This document shows positions 20,321-59,025 of a stretch of 64,000 nucleotides of DNA, in pieces. Each line of letters opens with the position of its first letter. Position 1 is the first letter of the stretch. The DNA comes from Leptasterias polaris (taxonomy: Eukaryota > Echinodermata > Asteroidea > Forcipulatida > Asteriidae). The DNA lies in the NCBI GenBank assembly GCA_037783415.1, contig JAZGTN010000094.1:3720001-3784000 (forward strand), in the 5' to 3' direction. The notes under the pieces were generated by a model. That model searched no databases, was not told the origin of the DNA, and was given only the letters and a program-made list of their open reading frames with translations. A program made the translations under genes and the position numbers.

Positions 20321-22689
20321 CTCTCCGTGTCCTCCTCCCCCCCCCTCGACCCCAGCCCCCCCCTCGACCCCAGCCCCCCCCCCAAATTCCGCTCATGGTA
20401 GAGATAATGTACTATTGTACTGTGCTGAATTATGCACGCCAAACACAGCATGCACTATCCATAACCACAGCACAGGGGGACTGGCCACGAAGATTGCGCC
20501 GTTCATCTGTCAAATGCAAACGGACTTCTAAAAATACTTTGACCCCCGAGCGATTCTATTTGGTCTGTAACAGCAGACGTCAGGTTCGCGGCATCACAAT
20601 GGCGCACAATGCAATTCATTGAATGTCAACCATGTGTTTGATTGTGACGAGGAATCCTTCATCCTGTTTACATCACATACTCTCCAAAAAAAGAAAATGC
20701 CTTGAAACTGTTGACAGTAACTTGCAACTTGTTTGAGGAAAGACATAAAATACCATCATCAACCCTCCCCCCCATTTTTTGTTCAACAGCGCTGAGATGC
20801 GATCAATAATCGGAAGTAGCAAAGTATTCAATCAGTGAGGCGGATATTGCATTACAATGGATGACGTAAGACAAACACCCAAAACAGCACTTGCAACATG
20901 AAACAAACAAACTAATGGTGTCCTTGAATTGTTTACGTATACTCGCAGATTCATAGCTCTGCAATTCATAGAAAACAGTTGTTCCTCTTTTTAGAGGCAG
21001 TGCTGGGAATCCAGCTTCATGTTTTTACCACAACAAATCATTTTGAGTAGAGACCATTTGGTGAAAAGTCTGCACGGCAGTTTGAGAAATGAACTGTTTC
21101 CAGCATCACAAGATGGATGAAGATCTTAATCATGGCATCCATCTTGGTTCTGTCACCAAACCTAGGCTGGAAATTGAAAATTAGCCTGGTCCCCCCTTTC
21201 TCCATGGGGGTGATAGTTAGAGCTATTATTGGTCGGTGTGTAGGCAGGGAGCCAGACAAAGAGGGGGCACAGTAGGATTGAAGGTATTTTCCCATACGTC
21301 ATCCGAGCCGGGCTGGTAATGCATGACCACAGCGGGGCATCCATCTAGAGAAAACACCCAAGCAGTGAAGGGGAATCAATTACGTGCCAGCGCAGCCTTG
21401 TAATTGGGCCGTGTCTACAAGAGTCCACGTCCTTATACATTATGTACAATATCGACACACAGAGCTTTATGATGAAACAACACATACAAAGAGAGAGGGA
21501 GGAAAAAAAGGGGGAAAACAAGAAAAGAGAGAGTGAAGATTCCAACATGGCTGAGTACACATGATCAGCCACTTGTGAAAATGTCAAAGCGTGCTGGCTA
21601 AAGATCACAGTGCTTTTTAGCTGCGCAGATGGAATCCAGTGCCGGAATCCAGTGCCCCATGGCATTTTGTGCAACACACAGATTTGTTTCTCTCTCTCCT
21701 CCTGCTTCTCAGGATGCAAATCGAACCGGTTGCCATGGCAATAAGATAGCTGCATAAAATATATATGCTCCATGCTTTTTTTCCCTTCAGCACATCACCA
21801 CAGGAAGACATATGTACGAACGACACCACACGGCACTAGAAATTTAACCATGTAGACGGCTGCTTACATGATACCTACTCAGGTGTAGATGAATACATCA
21901 GTAACCATGGCATCGAGGTAAAAAACATGCATGTGGCCTTGTCAAGGGCTTTACAGAGGGGTGGATATTTTTCTCTCCGACCGACCGAGGGAAGGGCAGA
22001 TGACATGCGATGTCATTATAAGAAGAGTAGGGCAATAACCTTAAACATGAGATGTATTGACGGAACGTGACAAAGCGATAACAATTGACAGTGTGTTTTG
22101 GCTGAGCTTTATCCAAACGTACCGCGCTAATTTAGGATGACATTTAAGCCAAAAGACAAGCTGACTATGGGCACAATCATGACCTCCACTGTCGGTGAGG
22201 GTTTTTCTAGTAATACTACAAAATAGTTTCTTTGAAGGGTTACAAGCGTGTGACGTTCTTGACTTTCTTGGGAAGGGGGAGTTAATGCATTCGTGACATC
22301 AGCCTTGTCAAAGCAGATTATCTTGTTTTGTTTTTAAGAGGGGTTTTGCGTGCCGGCAAAGTTATTCACTAATTATAATTTTGCTTACAGCACTTGTACG
22401 TGTGAATTGTTTTGTTTATTGACCTCCAAAACCTTCTGTAGTTCTCAGTTGGCGAGTTTTTTCTTCTTCAGGAATTCAAGCTTACATGTACATGTACAAT
22501 CTGAGAGTTTTCTTGACAAAATACTGGACTGATGGAAGAGGGGAGAGAGGGGTGTTACACATCTTTTACTTTCCTGTTTTCATATCTTTATGTCAAGCAC
22601 TTGGGGCATTTTATCACAAGGGGTTTGCAGCAAGATAAGTGTATTTTATATCATTATTATTAATAATCTTTTCCCATAGATATATCAGA

Positions 22690-23795
22690 GCCCAATTTCA
22701 TAAAGCTGTTAAGCAGAATATACTGCCTAGCAAATTTTGTTCAAAAAATGAGTGGGGCACCAGTCATACCAATGTAAACTGTTCTATAAATTCTGGTGTT
22801 CCGCAAGGCTCAGTACTTGGTCCCACTCTCTTTCTTGTTTACATTAATGATCTGCCCGATGAAGTTTTGTCTCAGCTCGCCATGTATGCTGATGATTCAA
22901 CCCTCTACTGTGTTTCCCCTAACTCTTCCAACACTTCTCGCTGTGAGGTAGGTGTCTCACTAAACAATGACTTAGAGAATGTGCTAAAGTGGGGGAATGA
23001 TTGGCTAGTAACCTTCAATGCAAAGAAAACTAAACTTCTGTCTCTGTCTCGCTCAAGAGATGTTACATTTCCATCTATTCATATGGGTCCATTGACTTTG
23101 CCTGAGGTAGCAGATTTTTGCCTTCTTGGACATCTCCACCAACGCCAGTTGGGAGAGGTATATCTCAGGCATTGCAAAGAGTGCTTCCATGCGAGTTGGT
23201 TGTCTTTACCGAGCTCGGAAGTTCTTACCTCCTGATGCTACTCTCTACCTGTATAAGACAACTATACGTCCCCTAATGGAGTACTGTTGTCACATCTGGG
23301 CCGGAGCTTCTGCCTGTCATTTATCTTTATTAGATAGGGTGCAGAAGCGTATTGTTAATCTTGTTGGTGAAGTGTTGGGATCAACGTTACAACCTCTTTC
23401 CCACCGTAGGTCTGTAGCCAGCCTCTGTCTTTTCTACAGATATTTTCATGGTAAATGTGCCACCAGTGTGTCCGACCTAGTTCCTCCTGTCAGAGTGTTT
23501 GAGCGTGAAACCAGACTTTCTGCTTCTTCTCACCCATACACTCTTAATTTGCTGAGATGTAGAACAAAGAACCATTCCAACAGCTTTATTCCACGTACTG
23601 CATCTCTTTGGAACTCCTTGCCTGGTGCATGTTTCCCCCCATCCTACAATCTAGACTGTTTTAAGAGGAATATCAATTCCTACCTCCAGCTCTCCTGAGT
23701 TATTTCCATGTTTAATAATTTTCTTCTTGTAGCCCCTTACCAAGAGTGGCTTTTAGCCTTGTTTGGGGCGAACTTGCATAAAAAACAAAAAACAA
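22690..23795 (+). mobile_element. 5'-truncated non-LTR retrotransposon
   Basis: This is the 3' part of a LINE: the reverse transcriptase C-terminal half and thumb-like region, then a short 3' UTR ending in an A-rich tail (cataaaaaacaaaaaacaac). A second piece of the same family lies inverted at 45868-46110. The left limit is approximate because everything upstream of the RT motif block is missing. Confidence 0.8.
22710..23698 (+). pseudogene. Non-LTR reverse transcriptase, truncated and frameshifted
   Basis: The first frame (to 23235) contains the RT motif SGVPQGSVLGPTLFLVYIND and the catalytic YADD box (AMYADDSTLY). The second frame (from about 23126 to the stop at 23696-23698) carries the downstream region, with YKTTIRPLMEYCCHIWAG, RVQKRIVNL and a C-terminal TASLWNSLPGACF. 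The frame switches near 23126, where the first frame runs into nonsense residues, so the copy is broken. The endonuclease and N-terminal RT motifs are absent. The family is in the Jockey/CR1/L2-like range by motif style; I cannot place it more precisely. It opposes JPH and is probably inert. Confidence 0.82.
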
Positions 23796-27399: not shown

Positions 27400-27469
27400 T
27401 TAAGGAGGAGAAGATGCAGACAAACTTAGAATTGAGATAATGGCCTGCTTTCGGCACTGTTTGACCTAC

Positions 27470-28292
27470 CTTGATATAGCAAGGTCAGCTTTTTGTCTGG
27501 CAATATTTGCTGCTTGATTTGCTGCTTCCACTGCCCGTTCCACCCTATCGCTGATTCGCTTGGATCCAATCACAAATAGTTTCTTTTTCCCGGAGGCCAC
27601 CAGGATATTGTTCTTCCACTTCCCCTCTTCCTTGTGCCCGTCGGGGTACGTGAGACAGCCGTATCCGTGCCGTTTGTTCTGGTGCCAATCCCCGGCGTAC
27701 TGAAAGGCATCCGAGCGCTGGCTGATCCCCACCCCTGAGCGTTTGTCCTGTTTCCATTCTCCGAGGAACACTTCGGTGATGTCTCCTGTCGCCTCCTCAT
27801 CGTGGAGGTGACTCGGATGACTGAAGTCGCTGTCCATGACGGAGGAATGGAGCGAGCTGGAGCTCATCCGACTCTCGCTCTCGTTACTCTTCAGCGAGTC
27901 CTGATGGTTGAGTCGGGGACGGAAGGACGCCACGCTCCCCTGCGTGCTGTCAGAGCTGTCCTTGTGACTCTGAGACCCATTCTTGTCCTTCTTTCGTTTG
28001 GTTCTTAGCCCAATCAGGGCTTTGCTCACGCGCACAGCGTCCCCGCGTTTAAATGTTCCACCCCGACTCTCCGTGTCCGTCGTCCCGTCGTCCGAGATGT
28101 CCAGAACGAAACCCCCTCTTTGGCCGAAGTTGTCCGGGACGGAAGCAATGGATCCATTTTCGTGCTCACTTCGCAGTGATGTGAGAGAGGTACGGAGGGC
28201 GGGTCGTACGATGGAGGCCATCCCATAAGGCACACTGTTGCGTATTCCACAGCCATGGCGCATTCCGCCAACCCATTGTCCCTGATAAATAC
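27470..28292 (-). CDS. JPH: Junctophilin, MORN VI-VIII and joining-region exon
   Basis: This 823-bp exon has acceptor ttccaaccag before 28292 and donor GTAGGT after 27470. It starts two bases into a Gly codon and ends two bases into an Arg codon. It opens with a MORN repeat (YQGQWVGGMRHGCGIRNS) followed by the junctophilin-typical VPYGMASIVRPALRTSLTSL. A Ser-rich joining region with a basic patch (RTKRKKDKNGSQSH) follows. Two MORN repeats come next (FLGEWKQDKRSGVGISQR and YAGDWHQNKRHGYGCLTYPD), then KEEGKWKNNIL and the start of the Ala-rich helix. MORN repeats bind plasma-membrane phospholipids; junctophilins tether that membrane to ER/SR at calcium-release sites. The order and spacing match the family, and beginning at MORN VI resembles vertebrate exon 2. 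The N-terminal MORN repeats are not in this window. Confidence 0.93.
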
Positions 28293-29610
28293 CTGGTTGG
28301 AAATCAAAAGAGAAACACACATGAGAGCATAAAGTTACCACCCATCAATTTGATTCCTTCAATTTGATTCCTTGCAAACTGTTCCTCAGCAGATACAATA
28401 TACATGTATTAAGCTACAATAAAAGAGTTTGTAAAACCCACCTTGCACCTACTAAACCCTAATAAGGTGCTACATAAATCAGTCTCATAATTCATAAAAA
28501 TTTCAAAACCTGTCTTAAAAAGTGTCTCTCTTTATTCAAGCACCTAGAGCACTTTATTGTTGGATATGTACGCTACATGTATATATATGTAAGACTCCAA
28601 TATCATTATCATTATATCTGGGCATAATGGCCATGATAAAGAAAAGCATGGTCTCCACTGCCTGACAAATAATAATTAATGTCCCATCGTGTTACAAAAT
28701 TTTGAGAGAAACTGTTTGTAAATGCCACAAAGAATTCTAAGCCAGTTCCGTTAATCAATTTCTGTTTTTTTGATACAATACTTTACATTTGAATGGAAGA
28801 TACATGTAGAATAGGGTGTCAAACTGTCAAAGTGTTTGTACGCAAGACACAAAGCCAAAAACTATGATGCTACACACTCAAATTTGACAAAATTCTACCT
28901 TTGCAGTCATATGGAAGAAAAGGACAGGAAGCAAGACAGACAATTCTCGCTGAGAGGATGATGTATCTCAAACCATTATTTAATATAACATGAACTGCCA
29001 GAGCACTTGATGGAGTACCCGCTTCAAGATTCGACCGCAGTATACTTTTTGTTATAAACATTAACATGTCTCTGGTCGTACGGTAAGGGTTTACACAAGA
29101 ATAAAATGATCACAAAAAGAAGGTTAGCCAGAATTTCTGTACGTCATTTCTAGAGACGACCGCATCAAATTCTTTTTGATTATCTTACATGTACATGTAG
29201 AAAGAAAGAAAAAAGGACATTACTGTTGAGGAAGCAATATTTTTTTAAAGAGAGAGAGCCAGTTGAGTTTACAATATGACGTCACCCAGAGACGAGAGTA
29301 CTGTACCAACTCGTCTCCAATTATCACAAGAAAATCTCCCAGAATGCATTAACCCACTTCTTCGCTTGGAGAGACATCGCTGGGGCATTCCATTTCACCG
29401 CGTCAGCATCCCTGAAGTCAGACCATAGAGAGAGAGAGAGAGAGTGAGAAAGATCCTCACAGTGAAGGAGGAGTGAGTCGCCCCCCTACAACTCTGAGGA
29501 GATTGGTACCACCGTGGATGCTGATAATGTCAAAAGATGACCCTGCGGGTAGTCTGAGGCCAGACCTCAGAATCCTGCCAGGGTCATTTGGGTGGATAAT
29601 CCGGTATTGC

Positions 29611-32360: not shown

Positions 32361-32711
32361 ATAATAATAATAATAATAATAATAACCAGTTCTTATACAT
32401 GTATAGCGCATTTTACATTAACGTCTCAATGCGCTTTACATTAGTGCCCTGGTCATTGGGCCAATAACATTCCTTTAATCTTGCTCAGCTCCCTGGGGAG
32501 TGTACAGCCCGAGCTGCCATGGCGCTCAGTTTTTCAAACACAATAACAACCTGTACCCATTTATTATACCCCTGGGTGAAGAGAAGCAATTATAGCGAAG
32601 TGTCTTGCTCAAGGACACAAGCGTCATGACCGGGACTCGAACCCACACCCTGATGACTAAACCACCAGAACTTGAATCCGATGATCTAAACCACTCGGCC
32701 ATGACACCCTA
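32361..32711 (-). mobile_element. tRNA-Leu(CAA)-like SINE, copy 2, near full length
   Basis: On the minus strand it begins with a class II tRNA-like head: A-box TGGCCGAGTGGTTTAGATC, anticodon loop TTCAAGT, a long variable arm and B-box GGGTTCGAGTCCCGG. The body continues through cttgagcaagacacttcgct, acccctgggtg (plus strand) and gcgcattgagacgtt, and ends in a taa/att trinucleotide tail (plus strand 32361-32385). This is the best reference copy of the family here. Confidence 0.82.
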
Positions 32712-37311: not shown

Positions 37312-37545
37312 AGGCCAACCCCTTCTTGTAGCGATAAGTGTGTTCTGGGGTCTTTTATAGTTCTTAATACAACACACGGGACCTACGGCTTTACGGCCCA
37401 TCCCAAGGATGAAGCAATAATGGTCAAGTAAGTGTCTTTCTTAAGGACAAAAGTGTCAAGACCAGGACTCGAACCCACACTCTGCTGATCATAAACACCA
37501 GAGCTTGAGTTCGGTGCGCTTAACCGCTCGGCCACGACACGCCGT
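37312..37545 (-). mobile_element. tRNA-Leu-like SINE, copy 3
   Basis: The minus-strand head reads TGGCCGAGCGGTTAAGCGC, then gaactcaagctctggtg, then B-box GGGTTCGAGTCCTGG. The body contains a plus-strand stretch like other copies (tcttaaggacaaaagtgtca). Confidence 0.72.
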
Positions 37546-37619
37546 AAAATTTCACTTGCCAGGAAGAAAAGTTACCAGCCAATAAGCCACTTGTGTGTTA
37601 GATTTGAATGGTGTCTGGT

Positions 37620-37738
37620 ACAGCAGCTTGTTAGCTTTTTTAATCTTTGTATAATTATTTTTGTTATGCGCTTGTGTACATTTTATGGAATGGGCGCAAT
37701 ATAAATGAATAAATTATTATTATTATTATTGTTCGGTC
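37620..37738 (+). mobile_element. Retroposon 3' tail
   Basis: The block gggcgcaatataaatgaataa followed by attattattattatt matches the 3' ends of SINE or LINE copies in the window. Only the tail is recognisable. It abuts the DIRS element. Confidence 0.45.
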
Positions 37739-37774
37739 ACAAGTTAATTCCCACCCCACAGTAGTGTGGGCTGG

Positions 37775-37929
37775 GTCTACGAACGAATACTTACCTGTAG
37801 AGCGAATACTACAATTGCATTGTTCCCTATGCCGGCAGGCAAAAGGCTAAGAGTTTTACACACAATAGCGCCCTCTGGTGTCCGACCCCGACGCCCTGCG
37901 ACATGCGCACTACGTCAGCTTCCTCTTTT
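37775..37929. repeat. DIRS left inverted terminal repeat
   Basis: It is the reverse complement of 43360-43514. Both ITRs begin GTCTAC; the next seven bases differ completely (gaacgaa here, ttcactc at the other end), and 142 identical bases follow, starting tacttacctgtagagcgaat. An extra 26 bases (37749-37774), present only at this end, contain a small hairpin (CCCACAGTAGTGTGGG). Confidence 0.92.
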
Positions 37930-37992
37930 CTCGAGCGCTACTTGACGCGTAAGCACCCAAAGAATCGAGTATAGTGGGGAAGGAGGGAGGGT

Positions 37993-38093
37993 GCTCTACA
38001 GGTAAGTATTCGTTCGTAGACCCAGCCCACACTACTGTGGGGTGGGAGTCTACTTCACTCTACTTACCTGTAGAGCGAATACTACAATTGCAT
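37993..38093. repeat. DIRS internal complementary region
   Basis: These 101 bp are the reverse complement of the right end joined to the left end. Bases 37993-38048 are complementary to the left terminus (37749-37804, including the 26-base cap), and 38049-38093 are complementary to the right terminus (to 43514). In DIRS elements such a region is thought to template joining of the ends in the circular intermediate. Confidence 0.9.
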
Positions 38094-38169
38094 AGACTCG
38101 CACCGAATAGGCGGTGGGTATACGCGAACTATCGTATGTCTATACAGGGGCGTAGGACACAGGGCGTGC

Positions 38170-39150
38170 CTAAAAAGACCCCGTAAGCGCACCGTAGCTC
38201 ATGCGCAAAGTCAGGAGGGTATCACCGTTATGGGAGTAAAAACATAATGGGTACACCTCATTAGATTTTAAATGCACATAAAAATGTGTATGAGAAGTGA
38301 ACTCACCGGTAATAAATAATTGGTGGTCCGTACGGAGTGATCTCGTACGGTGTACATACCACTTCAGTGCCCGGACTGGGCACCAAAATTTGTCGTCTGA
38401 CTCGGACGAAAAGGACTTGATGTCCGGGACAAAAATGTCCGGAGGCGTAAAAGACGCCGACTGATTCTTTGTAAGGAAGCCGGCCGAAGGAATTAGGCGG
38501 ACACCGCCTGGCTCCCAACGGATGTGGCCCGCTTCTACTGACAGAGCGTGCAGTTCACTGCGCCGCCGGGATGTAGCAACCGCCAACAGGAATGAAACCT
38601 TAATGGATAGTTGCAATAGCGTGGAACAGTCCATTGGTTCGAAGGGGTGTTTTGCCAAAGTCGATAGAACGCTAAAGAGGTCCCAGGACGGAACTAGTTT
38701 GCGTACCGGGGGACGAGTGACGAACATCCCCTTGATCAGTTGGCTGATCGCCCGGTTATCCGAGACGGAAGAACCGTCTGGGAAGCCCATATGTATTGCG
38801 GCGACGGCCGACCGGTAATTTTTTACCGTGCCCGTCGAGAGGCCGCTGTCAAAAAGGTATAAGAGGAAATCCCCAACCTCCCCTACAGAAGTATTGGGGG
38901 GACGGAGGGATTTCCGTCTACACCATTTAAGGAAATGGCGTAGTCGGCTCTCATATACCTTTCTGGTGGAGGCTCGGCGCGAGTGAGCTGCGACAGTCGC
39001 AGCCCGTCGCGAAAGGCCTGCTGAGCGGAGGGATCTCGTGATAGTACCCAACAGGTCAGGTGAAGATCCCCCGGAGCCGAGTGAATCCTCCCCGAGCTGG
39101 GCTGATATAGGATATCCGCTCGCCTCGGTAGGATCACCGGGCGGTGAACC
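38170..39150 (-). CDS. DIRS tyrosine recombinase, C-terminally truncated
   Basis: The frame is open from 40860 to the stop at 38172-38170; only the part from about 39150 looks like recombinase. It has the N-terminal SAM-like region (TRKVYESRLRHFLKWCRR, then VGDFLLYLFDSGLSTGTVKN) and the catalytic domain through the first catalytic Arg (LAVATSRRRSELHALS, about 38540-38590) and the CPVRALKWYVHRT segment. The reading then changes character after HQLFITG. The HxxR motif and nucleophilic Tyr, expected about 70-100 residues later, are absent, and only about 75 bases remain before the internal complementary region. A donor-like G|GTGAGT lies at 38307/38306. Splicing to ttttag at 38170 would add only 13 codons. 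The frame is -1 to the RT frame with no nearby Met, so expression probably needs frameshifting or splicing. Confidence 0.8.
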   Translation of the reverse strand, partial: GSPPGDPTEASGYPISAQLGEDSLGSGGSSPDLLGTITRSLRSAGLSRRAATVAAHSRRASTRKVYESRLRHFLKWCRRKSLRPPNTSVGEVGDFLLYLFDSGLSTGTVKNYRSAVAAIHMGFPDGSSVSDNRAISQLIKGMFVTRPPVRKLVPSWDLFSVLSTLAKHPFEPMDCSTLLQLSIKVSFLLAVATSRRRSELHALSVEAGHIRWEPGGVRLIPSAGFLTKNQSASFTPPDIFVPDIKSFSSESDDKFWCPVRALKWYVHRTRSLRTDHQLFITGEFTSHTHFYVHLKSNEVYPLCFYSHNGDTLLTLRMSYGALTGSF

Positions 39151-41405
39151 AGGAGCCTGATGATCCGGGGAAACCACGGCTGGCGGGGCCAGAACGGGGC
39201 TATGAGGAGGACTCGGCAGTCCTCCTGCTCGATCTTGGTCAGCACCCGAGAAATGAGGGAGATGGGCGGGAACGCATAGGCCAATAGGCCGTCCCACTGC
39301 ACTGCCAGTGCGTCGATCTGCCACGCGTTGGGGTCTGGACCCCTTGCGCAGTAAACCGGCAGCTGGTTGTTCGCATGGGAGGCGAACAAGTCCACGTGGG
39401 GCCGGTCGATCAGTTGGAAGAGCGACCGGGCCACTTGCGGGAGCAGAGACCACTCCGTCGGGGCGATCCAGCCCCTGGAGAGAGCGTCGGCTGTGACGTT
39501 CTCTATGCCCGCGATGTGGACTGCCGACAGTGCTATCTCGTGGCGTATGCACCAAAGGACGAGGACCCACGTCAGTGCACACAGCCGGCCCGACCGAGTA
39601 CCCCCCTGGTGATTGATGTAAGCCACCACCGTGGCATTGTCGCATCTCACCAGGACCGCTCGTCCTTTGACGTCTGCTTGGAAATGTTGCAGTGCGTTGG
39701 AGACTGCCAACATTTCCAAGACGTTGATGTGGGACGACTGGTGTTCGGGACCCCATACACCTGCGACCTCTTTCGGGTGTAGGGTCGCCCCCCATCCGTG
39801 TAGCGACGCGTCGGTAGTGACTGTCACTAACGGACGGGGCGGGCGGAAGGCGCGGCCCTGCGCGATGTTCGCCTCGGCTAGCCACCAACGAAGGTGGGGG
39901 ACCAGCCATGGCGTAGTGGGCACCGGATGGTGGATAGGATGCCGGATGGGCTTGTAGACAGAGAGCAGGTGAAGCTGAATAGGCCTCATCCTCAGCCTGC
40001 AAAAGTCTACCAAATCCACCATGCTGGCCATAAGGCCCAACAGCCTGAGCCAGGCCAGAGCCGGAGCCACCACCGCTGGGAGGAAGAGGGAGACGCACTG
40101 TCGAAGGTTCGACAGACGGTCTTCCGAAGGGCGGGCCAGCCCCCTGCGAAGGTCGAGACACGCACCCAAAAAGGTGGGGACCTGCGAGGGGGTGGGGTGC
40201 GATTTCTCGGCGTTGATGATGAATCCGAGGTCGGAAGCTAGACGCCAGGTTAGCTGGAGCGCCGCTTCCGTTTCCTCCCGAGAACGGCCCACGACCAGCC
40301 AATCGTCGAGGTACATGAATAGCATGATGCCTCGCCTCCGCAGAGCCGCCCCGATCGACTTTGCGATCCGGGTGAAAACCCGCGGTGCGGTAGAAAGTCC
40401 GAACGGGAGCACCACAAATTCGTACAGGGTATCGTTGTACTGGAAACGTAAGAATTTGCGGTGCTCCGGCCTGATCGGTACGTGAAGATAAGCGTCCTTC
40501 AGGTCCAGACTTGCCGCCCACGCGGGTGTAATTATTGACCCCAGTATGGTCCTCAGCGTCTCCATACGGAAACGCTTCGGACGTATGAATTTGTTGAGGG
40601 GCTTTAGATTCAAAATCGGGCGCCAAACGCCAGCCTCCTTCTTGGGTGTCAAGAAGAAAACTGACATGAAGCCCGTCCGAGCCCCCGATCGGGGGACGAT
40701 CCGCACCGCCCGCTTCTGGAGGAGAGTGTTGATCTCCGCCTCGAGAGCGCGGCGCTTTGACATGTCGGACGGGACAGGTGTCGGCCGATTGAGCATGTCC
40801 GACGGGGGGGTTCTCGTAAACTCGAGCGCGTAACCGCGGCTGATCGTTTCGAGAACCCACCCGTCGGAGGTAACCTGGCCCCAGGACCCCATAAACTCCT
40901 GAATGCGGCCTCCCACGGGTCCGTCGGCGGGAGGTCGCCAGGAGGCCAGCCCATCACTTGCGCCACGCCCCCGTATATCGGGGGGTGGGCGCACGGAAAC
41001 CGCGGCCCGACTGGGCACGTTGTTGTCCGGGTTGGGGCTGCGTGAAGTGTGGGCCGGCGGTGTTATCGGTACGGCCACGAAAGCTTCCCCGGGTCGCCTT
41101 TTGCGGGCGGCGTCGTGGGATGGTAAAGGCCGTCTGCTTCCTCGCCCTACCCGCGGCTTTGGGGGCCGGGGGTTGAGGCTTCTTGAGGTTGATTTTATCC
41201 GTGGCCTTGAGGCGTTTAGCCTCGGCCTCCATGGATTCCTGGAACTGTCCCGCAAACAAATCCGGCCCTGAGAGTGGGAGATCATCGAGGCGCTTACGCG
41301 CCCCCGGTGATGGGAGAAACAGCGCATCGAGCACGTTGGCTCGGCGCGTTGTAGTCGCCAGGGTCGACACTCTGGTGAACTGGTCCAAGACGGACCGTAG
41401 ACCAT
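38883..41405 (-). CDS. DIRS reverse transcriptase-RNase H-methyltransferase-like polyprotein
   Basis: This 840-codon frame begins at an ATG (41405-41403) inside the gag frame; the true start may differ. Residues near 185-225 carry the DIRS-type EFMGSWGQVTSDGWVLETIS. The RT fingers and palm follow (WRPILNLKPLNKF, SLDLKDAYLHVPI, FVVLPFGLSTAPRVFT), with the catalytic FMYLDDWLV near residue 367. RNase H spans about 528-642, with TTDAS, an Asn-Val-Leu-Glu segment, RCDNATVVAYIN and ENVTADALSR as likely acidic-residue sites. A C-terminal segment (DLFASHANNQLPVYCARGPD to AYAFPPISLISRVL and LLIAPFWPRQPWFP, about 670-740) corresponds to the methyltransferase-like region of DIRS elements. The frame is +1 to gag and overlaps it by 452 bp. 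No stop or frameshift was seen. Confidence 0.92.
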   Translation of the reverse strand: MVYGPSWTSSPECRPWRLQRAEPTCSMRCFSHHRGRVSASMISHSQGRICLRDSSRNPWRPRLNASRPRIKSTSRSLNPRPPKPRVGRGSRRPLPSHDAARKRRPGEAFVAVPITPPAHTSRSPNPDNNVPSRAAVSVRPPPDIRGRGASDGLASWRPPADGPVGGRIQEFMGSWGQVTSDGWVLETISRGYALEFTRTPPSDMLNRPTPVPSDMSKRRALEAEINTLLQKRAVRIVPRSGARTGFMSVFFLTPKKEAGVWRPILNLKPLNKFIRPKRFRMETLRTILGSIITPAWAASLDLKDAYLHVPIRPEHRKFLRFQYNDTLYEFVVLPFGLSTAPRVFTRIAKSIGAALRRRGIMLFMYLDDWLVVGRSREETEAALQLTWRLASDLGFIINAEKSHPTPSQVPTFLGACLDLRRGLARPSEDRLSNLRQCVSLFLPAVVAPALAWLRLLGLMASMVDLVDFCRLRMRPIQLHLLSVYKPIRHPIHHPVPTTPWLVPHLRWWLAEANIAQGRAFRPPRPLVTVTTDASLHGWGATLHPKEVAGVWGPEHQSSHINVLEMLAVSNALQHFQADVKGRAVLVRCDNATVVAYINHQGGTRSGRLCALTWVLVLWCIRHEIALSAVHIAGIENVTADALSRGWIAPTEWSLLPQVARSLFQLIDRPHVDLFASHANNQLPVYCARGPDPNAWQIDALAVQWDGLLAYAFPPISLISRVLTKIEQEDCRVLLIAPFWPRQPWFPRIIRLLVHRPVILPRRADILYQPSSGRIHSAPGDLHLTCWVLSRDPSAQQAFRDGLRLSQLTRAEPPPERYMRADYAISLNGVDGNPSVPPILL

Positions 41406-43194
41406 TGTCCAGACAGTGGAGGGCAGCCACCATCATATCGGCTGGCACCACTGAATCTTCCTCACATCCCAGTGCCAGATACTCGGAGAGTAGCAGGAGG
41501 AAGGAGGTAGCACGCATGCCCATGCGTGCCGAACGGTCCATCTTCCGGGCGACGTCTTCCAACTTCCCGCGGGTCTTGTCCGCAAACGGGAGTTTGGAGG
41601 ACGCCGATCCTCTGTCGGCGGCTAATTTGTCGGTGGCCGAGTCCAGCAGGGCGGGGGTGGCAAAGTACTTTTTGTAATCCCGATCGGGGAAACGGTAGTA
41701 CGGCTCCATACGTTTGGAGAATGGGGCCCATGTTTTCGCACCCATCACCCCGTCCATTCGGTCAACACACACGCGATCCAAGGGCATCACAGGGAAGGCC
41801 TTGGGCGCTTCAGCCGGACCCGATCTCCTAATGAACGATTGATGTTCCGGAGGAGGGGGTTCGGGGTCAGCAGGGAGTTCGAGGACTCTTATCATGTCCC
41901 TCTGGACTAGACGCAGTTCGGTCTCGGAGATCGAAAGGCGCTGGACAGAGTGGACTAACTCGGCGTCTTCCTCGGCCGAGTTGGCCGAGTCAGGGGGCCG
42001 AGATGCCTCCGAACCATACACCGCTGGTGAGATGGCACCGTCACGGTGTTCCGATGAGCCGTGATCCGACTCAAAGGACGCCGACGGGTGCAGGCTGATG
42101 CCTGGCGGGGATGCTATCATGCGGGGGGCCGTGCGTGGCACTACCCGCTGGTCTGCAGTCACGCGCCCCTGGCCATGGTGACCGGCGGGCGGGGGCTGCC
42201 GGCCTGGGGGGGACTCCGGAGCACGGCTAGCCGTGTGTGGTAGGCTCCGTTGGCCCGGCGTCATCCAGCCGTGGCCATAGTGACTAAGGGGCACCTGTGA
42301 GGTGACCGAGTCAGGGGGGCCTTGTCCCCGGCCCGAAATTGAGGCGGCCAGAGTGTGAAAGGCCTCCAGAAAATCATCACGGGAGATCGGGTCCCCACCC
42401 CTGTTGCGTTTAGCACGGTGGGACCGTCCCGGGGACCCGCTCGAGCTCGAAGATGAACGACGAGAACGGCGGGCCTTTTTGCTCTTCTTTTTCTTGGAAG
42501 AGCGTCGGGTGGACTCCGAGGAAGCCTCAGAGGTCACCTGGGTCACGGGGATGCCCGAGCAGCGGGAAAAACCCGCTGTGGAGGGCTGGCTCCCGGGGAG
42601 TATCTCCCCAAGGGGGCCCCATGGGACCTGTTCCCCGTGCCCAATGGCCTGGGCGGCCGACAGTGCCCCAAGCCCGATGGCGTAGGCAGGCGCTGTGCGG
42701 TCGAGGCGGCCGTACAAGAGCCCGTCCCTAGGCACCGCGGAGTTCACGATGGCATCGGGAGGGTCTGGGCGCATTGAGCCGTGGAGGGGTATTATTCCCT
42801 CTGGCTGTAAATGCTCCAAAGAGGGGGCTTTTATAGCTCCGTGGTCAGTCATGGTGGGCTCTGCAACCGAGTCACGCTTGACTGACCGCCCTCTTTTGGG
42901 TACAGCCGCGGTATCCGACAACTTCTTTGTCTTAATACCGGGGCGTTTCCCCTTCGGTTGGGTGGACCCATTCACGCTGGTCGGAGACGATGGGGCCGCA
43001 AGGTCCCTCGCTCGGCCAATGGGTCCCTCAGCTCCGCCAGCCGGTAGTGGCTGGGGGAGCTGATCGGGGGATTGCAGCCGCGGTGACGACGTGTCGCCGG
43101 TGCAAATCCCCGAGGGCTCGGGCTGTCCCGGTGGAACGCAAGTCCCTCCGGTTCTGACACGCCCTGTCCTCCCCAACTTCTTAGAATTACTCAT
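40954..43194 (-). CDS. DIRS Gag-like protein
   Basis: This 746-codon frame starts from the ATG at 43194-43192 (MSNSKKLGRTGRV). The frame is open six codons further upstream without an ATG. The N-terminal half is Pro/Ser/Gly-rich with a very basic patch (KKKKSKKARRSRRSSSSSS, about 42430-42490) that could act as a nuclear signal or bind nucleic acid. The C-terminal third is more ordered, with VCVDRMDGVMGAKTWAPFSK, ARMGMRATSFLLLLSEYLAL and LDQFTRVSTLATTTRRANVL, and ends in an Arg/Gly/Pro-rich tail. Position, size and composition fit DIRS ORF1. No zinc knuckle was seen. Assignment rests mainly on location in an otherwise clear DIRS element. Confidence 0.82.
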   Translation of the reverse strand: MSNSKKLGRTGRVRTGGTCVPPGQPEPSGICTGDTSSPRLQSPDQLPQPLPAGGAEGPIGRARDLAAPSSPTSVNGSTQPKGKRPGIKTKKLSDTAAVPKRGRSVKRDSVAEPTMTDHGAIKAPSLEHLQPEGIIPLHGSMRPDPPDAIVNSAVPRDGLLYGRLDRTAPAYAIGLGALSAAQAIGHGEQVPWGPLGEILPGSQPSTAGFSRCSGIPVTQVTSEASSESTRRSSKKKKSKKARRSRRSSSSSSGSPGRSHRAKRNRGGDPISRDDFLEAFHTLAASISGRGQGPPDSVTSQVPLSHYGHGWMTPGQRSLPHTASRAPESPPGRQPPPAGHHGQGRVTADQRVVPRTAPRMIASPPGISLHPSASFESDHGSSEHRDGAISPAVYGSEASRPPDSANSAEEDAELVHSVQRLSISETELRLVQRDMIRVLELPADPEPPPPEHQSFIRRSGPAEAPKAFPVMPLDRVCVDRMDGVMGAKTWAPFSKRMEPYYRFPDRDYKKYFATPALLDSATDKLAADRGSASSKLPFADKTRGKLEDVARKMDRSARMGMRATSFLLLLSEYLALGCEEDSVVPADMMVAALHCLDNGLRSVLDQFTRVSTLATTTRRANVLDALFLPSPGARKRLDDLPLSGPDLFAGQFQESMEAEAKRLKATDKINLKKPQPPAPKAAGRARKQTAFTIPRRRPQKATRGSFRGRTDNTAGPHFTQPQPGQQRAQSGRGFRAPTPRYTGAWRK

Positions 43195-43359
43195 TCTACA
43201 CTCACTACACAACTACACACAACTCTACAAACTGTAGTTTAACTATATTTTATTTGAAACAAGCTTTCTCGAAGCAGTAAGCACGTAAATTTAATGAAAT
43301 TTAATGAAATTTCTTTACGTGGCTTAAACTCACATGTAACCTGTGCCTGCGCTAAGAGA

Positions 43360-43514
43360 AAAAGAGGAAGCTGACGTAGTGCGCATGTCGCAGGGCGTCG
43401 GGGTCGGACACCAGAGGGCGCTATTGTGTGTAAAACTCTTAGCCTTTTGCCTGCCGGCATAGGGAACAATGCAATTGTAGTATTCGCTCTACAGGTAAGT
43501 AGAGTGAAGTAGAC
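43360..43514. repeat. DIRS right inverted terminal repeat
   Basis: It is the reverse complement of 37775-37929, except for a block of seven bases near the outer end. It precedes gag in the sense orientation and is the likely place for transcription initiation, though I see no clear TATA box. Confidence 0.92.
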
Positions 43515-45270: not shown

Positions 45271-45867
45271 CATTCCAGACCCAGAACCTCCCACTAGAAA
45301 TGTTACAATTCAGGAGGGTTAACTACAGACTTTGTGCATTACCAGAATTACATGTGCAAAACTACTGGTTACAATACAATGTGGACTATTTCCTTCTCCA
45401 TTTGGTGATTGCTTTATGTCCTTCCAGAAAATCTGAAGGCTCAAGGAGACTATGAGAAAAACCTGAAATCAGGAAAAATGCTTTTAAAGGGAAATCAAAT
45501 GCCTGTTGTATAGGTCCTACCTTTATTAACGAATGACATCCGCTAGACTGAAAGCATATGATCCCTAAAGATCAGGGAATTTCCAAGGCCGTCCCTTAGG
45601 CCACGATCATTCACAATATTCAAACAATTTATGGAACGTTTGGTGGACGTACAAAACTTCAGTGAACCGACCGCACAGCTGATGTTGAGCAGCTCTTAGT
45701 TAGGGACCCCCTGCCTCCTTGCCAATGACGAAGGCTTTCTTGTGTTCATCACATAAACACAGTGTACAGTCTACATGCTAAACCTGAAAGATGATCCATC
45801 ATTGTTTTTCGGAAGCGTACATATACTCCAACCTTCTCCCTTTTCCTTTTAAATGTCCGCCCTAATT

Positions 45868-46110
45868 AAAGCTAAAAGCCACTCTTGGTAAGGGGCTACT
45901 AGCAGAAAAATATTAAAGATGAAATTTACTCAGGGAATCTGAAGGTAGGAATTGATATTCCTCTTGAAACAGTCTAGATTGTAGGATGGAGGGAAACGTG
46001 CACCGGGCAAGGAGTTCCAAAGAGATGTAGTACGTGGAATAAAGCTGTTGGAATGGCTCTTTGTTCTACATCTCAGCAGAGCAAGAGTGTAATGAATGAG
46101 AACAAGCAGA
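45868..46110 (-). mobile_element. 3' fragment of the 22.7-kb LINE family
   Basis: On the minus strand it gives the same C-terminal coding motif (PRTTSLWNSLPGARFPPSY) and the same 3' UTR start (gccccttaccaagagtggct) as 23600-23760. Only the last ORF segment and the UTR remain. Confidence 0.8.
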
Positions 46111-46744
46111 CAGTCCGATTTGAAGAAACATTTTCATAAAGAGATGGTTCATTGTTGGAATTTTGTAAGAATACATCCTTTCCAATCCTCTTGCTTTCGG
46201 GATGAGGGGATTGGTCCATCATGAATTTTTTGAGAAGTACATTCATTCATACTGTATGGTATAGTTTCAAAGCAAACATCGGAACAAAATGGCCCACATC
46301 ATTTAGAATAAGTTAAAACTTCTAATTTTCTATAAAATAAAATAAAAAAATTTAAAAAAATGGATGGTTGTATTTTTGGGCATGTTGGATGAGCCATGAA
46401 TTAAACCCCAACTGATTACTGACTGGAGTACATACATGTATATTAGAACACAAAAAGAGGTGACTGATTCATGTGCATACTGTGCAGGAACCGCTAAATC
46501 AAAATATTGCATTGTCCGATTACCAGTACTGTTCTCTCAAAACATACATGTACAAGTAACAATCACAAAAGTAATATATTCGCAGTTTCCAACTTTGCTT
46601 TATCACACCTGAAGGATCATCAAAGCACTCATTATTCTTTCTGACAGGAATGAAGAGTAATATTTGAATTATGACACTCCAATTAGATAACACCTTGTAG
46701 CTGTTTGTGAGGTAAAGAGGTGCAATCTGCAGCCAACCCTGCCC

Positions 46745-49829: not shown

Positions 49830-50043
49830 AGTGATGGAGGAAAGGTTAAAAGCATTGGGACTCATAAGCTCTGGTGTTTCTGATCAGCAGAGTGCGGGTT
49901 CGAGTCCTGGTCATGGCACTTGTGTCCTTGAGAAAGATACTTTATCATACTTGTTTTGTCCTTCAGATGGGACACTAAGGTGTACATGTAGGTCCCATGT
50001 ACTAGGATGGTAATGCATGTAAAAGCACCCAGAACACTTTCGT
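49830..50043 (+). mobile_element. tRNA-Leu-like SINE, copy 5
   Basis: The B-box GGGTTCGAGTCCTGG (49906-49920) and the following cacttgtgtccttgagaaag match the family; the A-box region has decayed. The body runs through gatgggacactaaggtgtac to acccagaacactttcg. Confidence 0.65.
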
Positions 50044-57325: not shown

Positions 57326-57893
57326 AAGGGGGCACCTTAATGAAGGGGGAACCTAAATGACGGGGGCACCTTAAAGAAGGTAGCATCTAAATGACAGGGG
57401 GCCCCTTAATGAAGGGGGCACCTTAATGAAGGGGGCACCTTAATGAAGGGGGCACCTTAATGAAGGGGGCACCTTAATGACGGGGGCACCTTAATGACGG
57501 GGGCACCTTAATGAAGGGGGCACCTTAATGACGGGGGCACCTTAATGACGGGGGCACCTTAATGACGGGGGCACCTTAATGAAGGGGGCACCTTAATGAA
57601 GGGGGCACCTTAATGAAGGGGGCACCTTAATGAAGGGGGCACCTTAATGACGGGGGCACCTTAATGACGGGGGCACCTTAATGAAGGGGGCACCTTAATG
57701 AAGGGGGCACCTTAATGAAGGGGGCACCTTAATGAAGGGGGCACCTTAATGAAGGGGGCACCTTAATGAAGGGGGCACCTTAATGACGGGGGCACCTTAA
57801 TGAAGGGGGCACCTTAATGAAGGGGGCACCTTAATGAAGGGGGCACCTTAATGACGGGGGCACCTTAATGAAGGGGGCACCTTAATGAAGTAT
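57326..57893. repeat. 17-bp minisatellite, about 33 copies
   Basis: The unit is gcaccttaatgaagggg, with one frequent variant position (gaagg or gacgg). The first five copies are diverged (for example aacctaaatgacggggg) and the remaining 28 are almost identical apart from the A/C site. The period is not a multiple of three and no coding frame is kept. Confidence 0.96.
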
Positions 57894-58663: not shown

Positions 58664-59025
58664 ACAATAATAATATGGATTTATATCGCGCTTTATCACA
58701 CCCAAGGGCGTCTCAAAGCGCTTCGAACATTATTACCCCTGGTCACTGGGCCATTTATTTCATTCCTTAAACCATCTCAGCTCCCTGGGGAGTATACAGC
58801 CTGTGCTGCAATATATGCGCTACTAGGCTACATTGTAAATCAATCACAAGAACCATCTCTGCCCTCACAGGTACCCATTTTACCCCTGGGTGGAGAGAAG
58901 CAATTATAGTTAAGTGTCTTGCTCAGGGACACAAGTGTCACGGCCGGGACTCGAACCCACACTCTGCTGAACAGAAACAACAGAGCTTGAGTTCGGTGCT
59001 CTTAACCGCTCGGCCACGACACGCC
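58664..59025 (-). mobile_element. tRNA-Leu-like SINE, copy 6, near full length
   Basis: The minus-strand head has TGGCCGAGCGGTTAAGAGC and GGGTTCGAGTCCCGG. The body includes acccctgggtggagagaagc and ggagtatacagcctg (plus strand) and ends in an ataataata tail at 58664-58676. Short acaacaataac tracts lie on both sides and may reflect the target. Confidence 0.8.

Follow-up and report, generated by a model that had tools for sequence, protein, structure and literature searches.

A predicted DIRS1-like retrotransposon copy in Leptasterias polaris with well-preserved repeats, gag and pol and a broken tyrosine recombinase

Within a 64-kb stretch of the Leptasterias polaris genome, analysed here as a whole (the window), a preliminary description had placed a DIRS-type retrotransposon that was called nearly complete and apparently young, which raises the question of how complete this element is, and how a copy in its present state could have reached its site. 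As set out below, the locus very probably represents a single DIRS1-like copy of rather recent insertion, with open gag and pol frames and a full set of repeats, in which a rearrangement near the 3′ end has removed the catalytic C-terminus of the tyrosine recombinase. The features of the element are collected in Table 1, with its termini named according to the scheme used in the relevant parts of PMC3266345.

Table 1. Positions of the features of the DIRS1-like element in the window, and of two distant relatives in other contigs.
Feature	Position	Strand	Remarks
DIRS1-like retrotransposon, defective copy	37749–43514	-	Limits from ICR match, 101/101
5′ divergent ITR part, 13 bp	43502–43514	-	6/13 identical to 3′ counterpart
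Conserved ITR, 5′ side, 142 bp	43360–43501	-	
gag, 746 aa, open	40957–43194	-	Aligns with relatives
pol frame	38886–41432	-	RT (YLDD), RNase H, MT-type domain; no internal stop
Recombinase part alignable to relatives	38308–39036	-	SAM-like core-binding domain and first half of catalytic domain (ATSRRRSEL region)
Recombinase-frame tail, 45 residues, unrelated	38173–38307	-	Relatives carry HxxR box and catalytic Tyr here
Unrecognised DNA, 214 bp	38094–38307		Recombinase break to ICR
ICR arm complementary to element 5′ end (43469–43514), 46 bp	38048–38093	-	
ICR arm complementary to element 3′ end (37749–37803), 55 bp	37993–38047	-	
Conserved ITR, 3′ side, 142 bp	37788–37929	-	
3′ divergent ITR part, 13 bp	37775–37787	-	
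Right extension (rE), 26 bp	37749–37774	-	Imperfect palindrome, predicted hairpin adjoining crossover point
DIRS retrotransposon L001	L001:1–5301		Contig filed as bacterial MAG, Proteobacteria Glo_12
DIRS retrotransposon L002	L002:1–4877		Contig filed as bacterial MAG, Parachlamydia CoA8_M59.1

The coding strand of the element is the minus strand, on which it runs from a 5′ end at 43514 to a 3′ end at 37749. The two arms of the conserved inverted terminal repeat (ITR) are complementary at 142/142 bases, and the internal region at 37993–38093 (ICR) matches, at 101/101 positions, the reverse complement of the element ends placed together (43469–43514 followed by 37749–37803), with the two ICR arms abutting at an overlap of 0 bp. 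The window holds four copies of a 16-nt core, TACTTACCTGTAGAGC, of which each ITR carries one and the ICR two; none of 100 shuffled sequences contained it (maximum count 0). The repeats thus bear out what had been described for the 142 identical bases of the inverted-repeat ends and for the 101-bp internal region, which matches both ends; these exact repeats also support the DIRS type, the element limits and the ITR/ICR architecture, and the ICR match allows the predicted circle-junction sequence to be read directly, as claimed. No further copy of the element was found by blastn within the 64-kb window.

Both of the frames described as open throughout, gag and RT-RNase H-MT, indeed lack an internal stop. 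The gag frame aligned with the proteins P0228–P0230, the best two of the seven relatives found being P0228 (63% identity over 99% of the query) and P0229 (58% over 83%), while the others covered 20–95% of the query, with one Patiria protein among the seven (coverage 20%); there was no Pfam match for gag. The pol frame, open from 41432 with its stop codon at 38883, matched the Pfam families RVT_1 (3e-21, above cut-off) and RT_RNaseH (4.9e-05, slightly below cut-off), and its YLDD, RNase H and MT-type blocks could be aligned with those of seven relatives; an MT profile gave no match on pol, and the name of this domain is taken from the literature. The C-terminal motif PPILL of pol is the same in P0109 and P0110, and reads LPILL in P0108. 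From 7991 candidates scored as pol relatives 556 passed, and among the best 120 of these 556 the named organisms were all sea stars (Asterias rubens and Patiria miniata), at identities of up to 84%. The pol frame was 83% identical to P0111 (A. rubens LOC117294748) over 83% of the queried region, 84% identical to P0117 (P. miniata LOC119730278) over 65% of the query, and 86% identical to P0108, a metagenome protein, at a coverage of 97%.

On the strength of its sequence features the element is classified as a DIRS1-like retrotransposon: it has inverted terminal repeats, an ICR matching both ends, a gag-like first frame, a DIRS-type RT and RNase H followed by an MT-type domain, and part of a tyrosine recombinase gene. 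An RT, an RNase H and a tyrosine recombinase are encoded by PAT and Ngaro elements as well (as described in parts of PMC3266345), which would share these coding features with the element; however, PAT elements have split direct repeats at their ends and Ngaro elements are described without an MT domain (same parts of PMC3266345), whereas the element studied here has inverted repeats with an ICR, together with an MT-type block that can be aligned with relatives, making a PAT- or Ngaro-type element extremely unlikely. A known element of similar layout is SkoDIRS2 of Saccoglossus kowalevskii, for which the passages of PMC3266345 that describe it give a gag frame, RT/RNase H/MT and recombinase frames that overlap, ITRs and an ICR. 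In comparison with Table 3 of that paper, the conserved ITR has the same length in both (142 bp), the divergent ITR measures 13 bp here and 15 bp in SkoDIRS2, and the rE 26 bp and 27 bp, an rE of 26–30 bp being present in eight of the 11 deuterostome elements in that table. The ICR arms, of 46 and 55 bp, differ from the 63 and 65 bp described for SkoDIRS2 in PMC3266345, and unlike SkoDIRS2, as described there, the copy in the window lacks the catalytic C-terminus of the recombinase and has abutting ICR arms without a shared 3-bp circular junction; Table 3 of the same paper also lists SkoDIRS2 without the long ORF overlap seen here.

The recombinase is where the copy departs from a complete element. 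Its full open frame (38173–40953, minus strand) overlaps pol, and its N-terminal and first catalytic part matched two Patiria proteins at 75% and 62% identity, the former being P0001 (P. miniata LOC119735737; 84% of the query), with further matches in a shrimp (Macrobrachium) and a catfish (Hemibagrus), both at low identity. The recombinase C-terminus is complete in P0001, where it carries HEVR and CYLKD motifs, and is absent from the copy in the window. When nine relatives were aligned to the window by tblastn, the alignment stopped at 38308 in eight and at 38311 in one. Among the 227 fetched proteins, 110 matched the recombinase at E ≤ 1e-5; in 64/110 the last aligned residue of the best alignment was 242 or 243, where an LFIT motif ends (window position 38308), and in a further 14/110 it fell at residues 244–251; overall, the ends fell before residue 240 in 26 relatives, at 240–251 in 78, at 253–255 in two and at 265–287 in four (four of the 110 alignments pass the break, by 22–44 residues at 34–45% identity). 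Most relatives whose alignment ended at 240–251 (65/78) extend at least 80 aa further, and 64 of these 65 extended C-termini contain an H-x-x-R box, with a strict CYLxD-type tyrosine box in 32/65; the looser pattern H-x(1-2)-R was likewise present in 64/65 of the real C-termini, versus a mean of 25 and a maximum of 34 in 200 shuffles. The HxxR box and the tyrosine are catalytic in tyrosine recombinases, and a recombinase containing both, as is a feature of an autonomous DIRS1-like element, was not found in this copy. The term nearly complete is accordingly not supported, with approximately 100 recombinase residues missing, including the HxxR box and the catalytic tyrosine, and 214 bp of unrecognised DNA in this part of the element.

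Searches for the lost part gave no remnant. None of the 227 proteins was related to the 45-residue tail that now ends the recombinase frame (best E 1.4), the C-termini of nine relatives searched by tblastn against the whole 64-kb window reached a best E of 0.03, and a profile of the 65 C-termini, which were picked for a length of 80–140 aa (actual length 81–129 aa), reached a best E of 1.2 on the 38094–38311 region. A local alignment of the 38094–38311 region to seven relatives was equalled by 80/300 shuffles and a frameshift-aware profile alignment near the break by 66/150 shuffles, and a remnant there was rejected; the frameshift-aware alignment likewise gave no support, beyond chance, to an out-of-frame AHELR motif at 38192–38206, near the expected HxxR site, as a remnant. 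Pfam is a weak witness for the recombinase loss, since Phage_integrase was matched by four of the six scanned recombinase relatives, all below the curated cut-off, and not by the window protein; one of the four matching relatives was hit solely in the part that the window retains, and two relatives bearing the C-terminus had no match.

Two further readings of the break were weighed. A splice donor-like sequence, GTGAGT, is present on the coding strand at 38306–38301, starting two bases past the last aligned recombinase codon; it may be there by chance, or the element could be complete, with its recombinase finished by splicing from this site. The 214 bp that remain before the ICR show no detectable recombinase C-terminus, and the C-termini of the relatives (81–129 aa) need at least 243 nt, so that an intron at the break is rejected because too little sequence is left before the ICR, and we regard completion by splicing as very unlikely. 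The abrupt end of the homology at 38308 and the higher AT content of the sequence after it (GC content 47.5% for 38094–38310 and 34.6% for 38230–38310) could also reflect an assembly error in which the DIRS element was joined, close to its 3′ end (38094–38307), to sequence from elsewhere, but the ICR and the 3′ ITR beyond the break are perfect matches to this element's own 5′ end, and a misassembly is thus considered quite improbable. A rearrangement within a real copy of the element is the reading that we prefer.

The insertion is apparently rather recent. No differences in 142 ITR positions correspond to a divergence of at most 2.1% (95%), an upper bound only, which presumes that the repeats were identical at insertion; when the ITR and ICR comparisons, which partly overlap, are counted together, the bound becomes ≤1.2%. 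The identical repeats and open frames agree with the description of the element as apparently young, although the bound on its age is a loose one, with up to 2.1% divergence allowed. In the flanks as read, no flanking duplication was seen. Taken on the plus strand, the sequence across the left junction is AAGTTAAT/TCCC and that across the right junction GTAGAC/GCTC (the slash marking the element boundary), the joined ends would read GTAGAC/TCCC, and the corresponding triplets are ACT for the joined ends, ATT for the left flank junction and ACG for the right. All three junctions would follow, without duplication, from one clean crossover of the circle with a AAGTTAAT/GCTC site, and this simple crossover model predicts an empty site reading ...CACAAGTTAAT/GCTCAATTTTTG... 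in which the modelled target triplet ATG has only the first base in common with ACT. Over 16 positions at this one site, the circle junction and the modelled empty site agree at eight, a score equalled by 2.3% of window positions. In the published integration model, as presented in the relevant part of PMC3266345, element and target share an identical 3-bp motif. Such a 3-bp circular junction common to both ends is absent in this copy, because its ICR arms abut with no overlap; since the start and end triplets are also unequal in several of the published elements in Table 3 of PMC3266345, the missing 3-bp junction does not by itself exclude an autonomous DIRS1-like element.

The element lies just past the TTA-rich tail of a SINE-like repeat copy (37411–37740), members of the same repeat family being present at 32598–32707, 49866–49971 and 58897–59025; ARAGORN recognised part of one related copy (32621–32705) as tRNA-Leu. 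Elsewhere in the window, a plus-strand reverse transcriptase fragment, probably of non-LTR type, is found at 22639–23698 (RVT_1, 1.6e-14), and a 267-bp stretch from its 3′ part recurs in inverted orientation at 45855–46121 with 88% identity. A minisatellite at 57326–57890 consists of 33 copies of a 17-bp unit (AAGGGGGCACCTTAATG) with 94% matches. A junctophilin-like exon with MORN repeats is located at 27466–28344, on the same (minus) strand as the DIRS element, with Junctophilin-2 and -1 as best PDB matches (E about 1e-47) and a Pfam MORN match; a motif scan for an upstream exon of this gene found none.

As read from its sequence, the copy retains recognisable cis signals and the predicted copying proteins, and would not encode an active recombinase. 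Following the published model, its arrival may be pictured as a transcript missing parts of both ends, which would have had these ends restored by reverse transcription on the ICR as template; the cDNA would then have closed into a circle, with a junction corresponding to the complement of 37993–38093, and the circle would have been integrated by a recombinase without target duplication. A 2020 paper reportedly names linear, single-stranded cDNA intermediates in its title. The passages of PMC5633606 that treat DIRS replication describe the order of incomplete transcript, ICR-templated completion, circular cDNA and recombinase-mediated integration, and in these passages the authors state that the model is not fully proven, with circular cDNA demonstrated in one Dictyostelium mutant strain. 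For the copy in the window, we infer that the recombinase was either supplied in trans, or was its own and was damaged after insertion. The retained part of the recombinase is approximately as similar to P0111 (84.5% identity, over 84 residues only) as is pol (83%), and this is consistent with the loss being recent, with the copy being young, or with both. As a refinement of the main explanation, the recombinase end may have been lost before insertion, in a lineage that spreads on the recombinase of intact sister copies; the perfect ITRs and ICR and the open gag and pol would then reflect recent mobility, and the recombinase remainder indeed shows no visibly greater decay than pol. Such a lineage finds no echo in the relativeless 45-residue tail or in the unrecognised DNA, as 38094–38310 had no second match inside the window that could point to its source, and loss after insertion accounts equally well for the same facts, so that we hold loss before insertion to be a tentative option, with somewhat less than an even chance.

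The rE adjoining the predicted crossover point raised a further possibility. This 26-bp sequence is predicted to fold into a hairpin of -9.7 kcal/mol (z -3.9, with 0/200 shuffles as good), and in the modelled fold of the junction the crossover C/T forms a 2-nt bulge in the predicted stem, the inner 57 nt giving z -3.2 (2/200 shuffles); the stability of the junction is largely trivial, because the junction joins inverted repeats. For comparison, two relatives, L001 and L002, were obtained from 58 pattern matches in genome contigs, while four scans of viral contigs (1, 13, 1 and 9 pattern matches) yielded none that tblastn confirmed. Both contigs are filed as bacterial and probably represent eukaryotic contamination of bacterial bins. 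L001 (best pol segment 42% identical) retains a recombinase frame with HEIR and FYLRD motifs and was compared in its ICR only, and L002 (29% identical) is nearly whole, with its 3′ end cut. Their inner ICR pieces were predicted to fold comparably (L001, 52 nt, z -3.5, 1/200 shuffles; L002, 62 nt, z -3.4, 0/200), although such pieces contain diverged ITR bases that are possibly paired by descent, and their rE pieces, with limits set after the fold was seen, were equalled by 0/200 and 1/200 shuffles, respectively. The L002 hairpin lies approximately 15–17 nt from the inferred junction, and L001 was considered without a defined junction. By ungapped palindrome score the rE in the window was unusual (reached by 11/5000 shuffles), and those of L001 (736/5000) and L002 (1288/5000) were unremarkable, while the 3′ end of the element as a whole (82 nt) gave only z -2.6 (4/200 shuffles as good). 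With such mixed controls the rE hairpin remains a lead, and that it is a conserved crossover-point hairpin, recognised as a folded single strand by the recombinase or by a cDNA-closing step, is in our estimation unlikely. Recognition of this kind would resemble that of folded attC sites by integron integrases. The words palindrome and hairpin are absent from the main text of PMC3266345 and PMC9210276, and the wider literature may differ; in the relevant passages of PMC5633606 these words concern other subjects, in those of PMC4482531 hairpin refers to RNA constructs, and the passages of PMC2685390 contain nothing on this question.

DIRS1-like elements have already been listed in echinoderms (in parts of PMC3266345), and the copy described here is an ordinary one, a further DIRS1-like element whose recombinase is broken. 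Its repeats and its gag and pol genes are well preserved while the end of the recombinase is gone, which makes the copy a good structural specimen rather than a complete element, with the ends, the ICR and both flank junctions cleanly readable. If the rE hairpin were to hold true across elements, it would offer a concrete candidate for the site that is recognised in DIRS integration.
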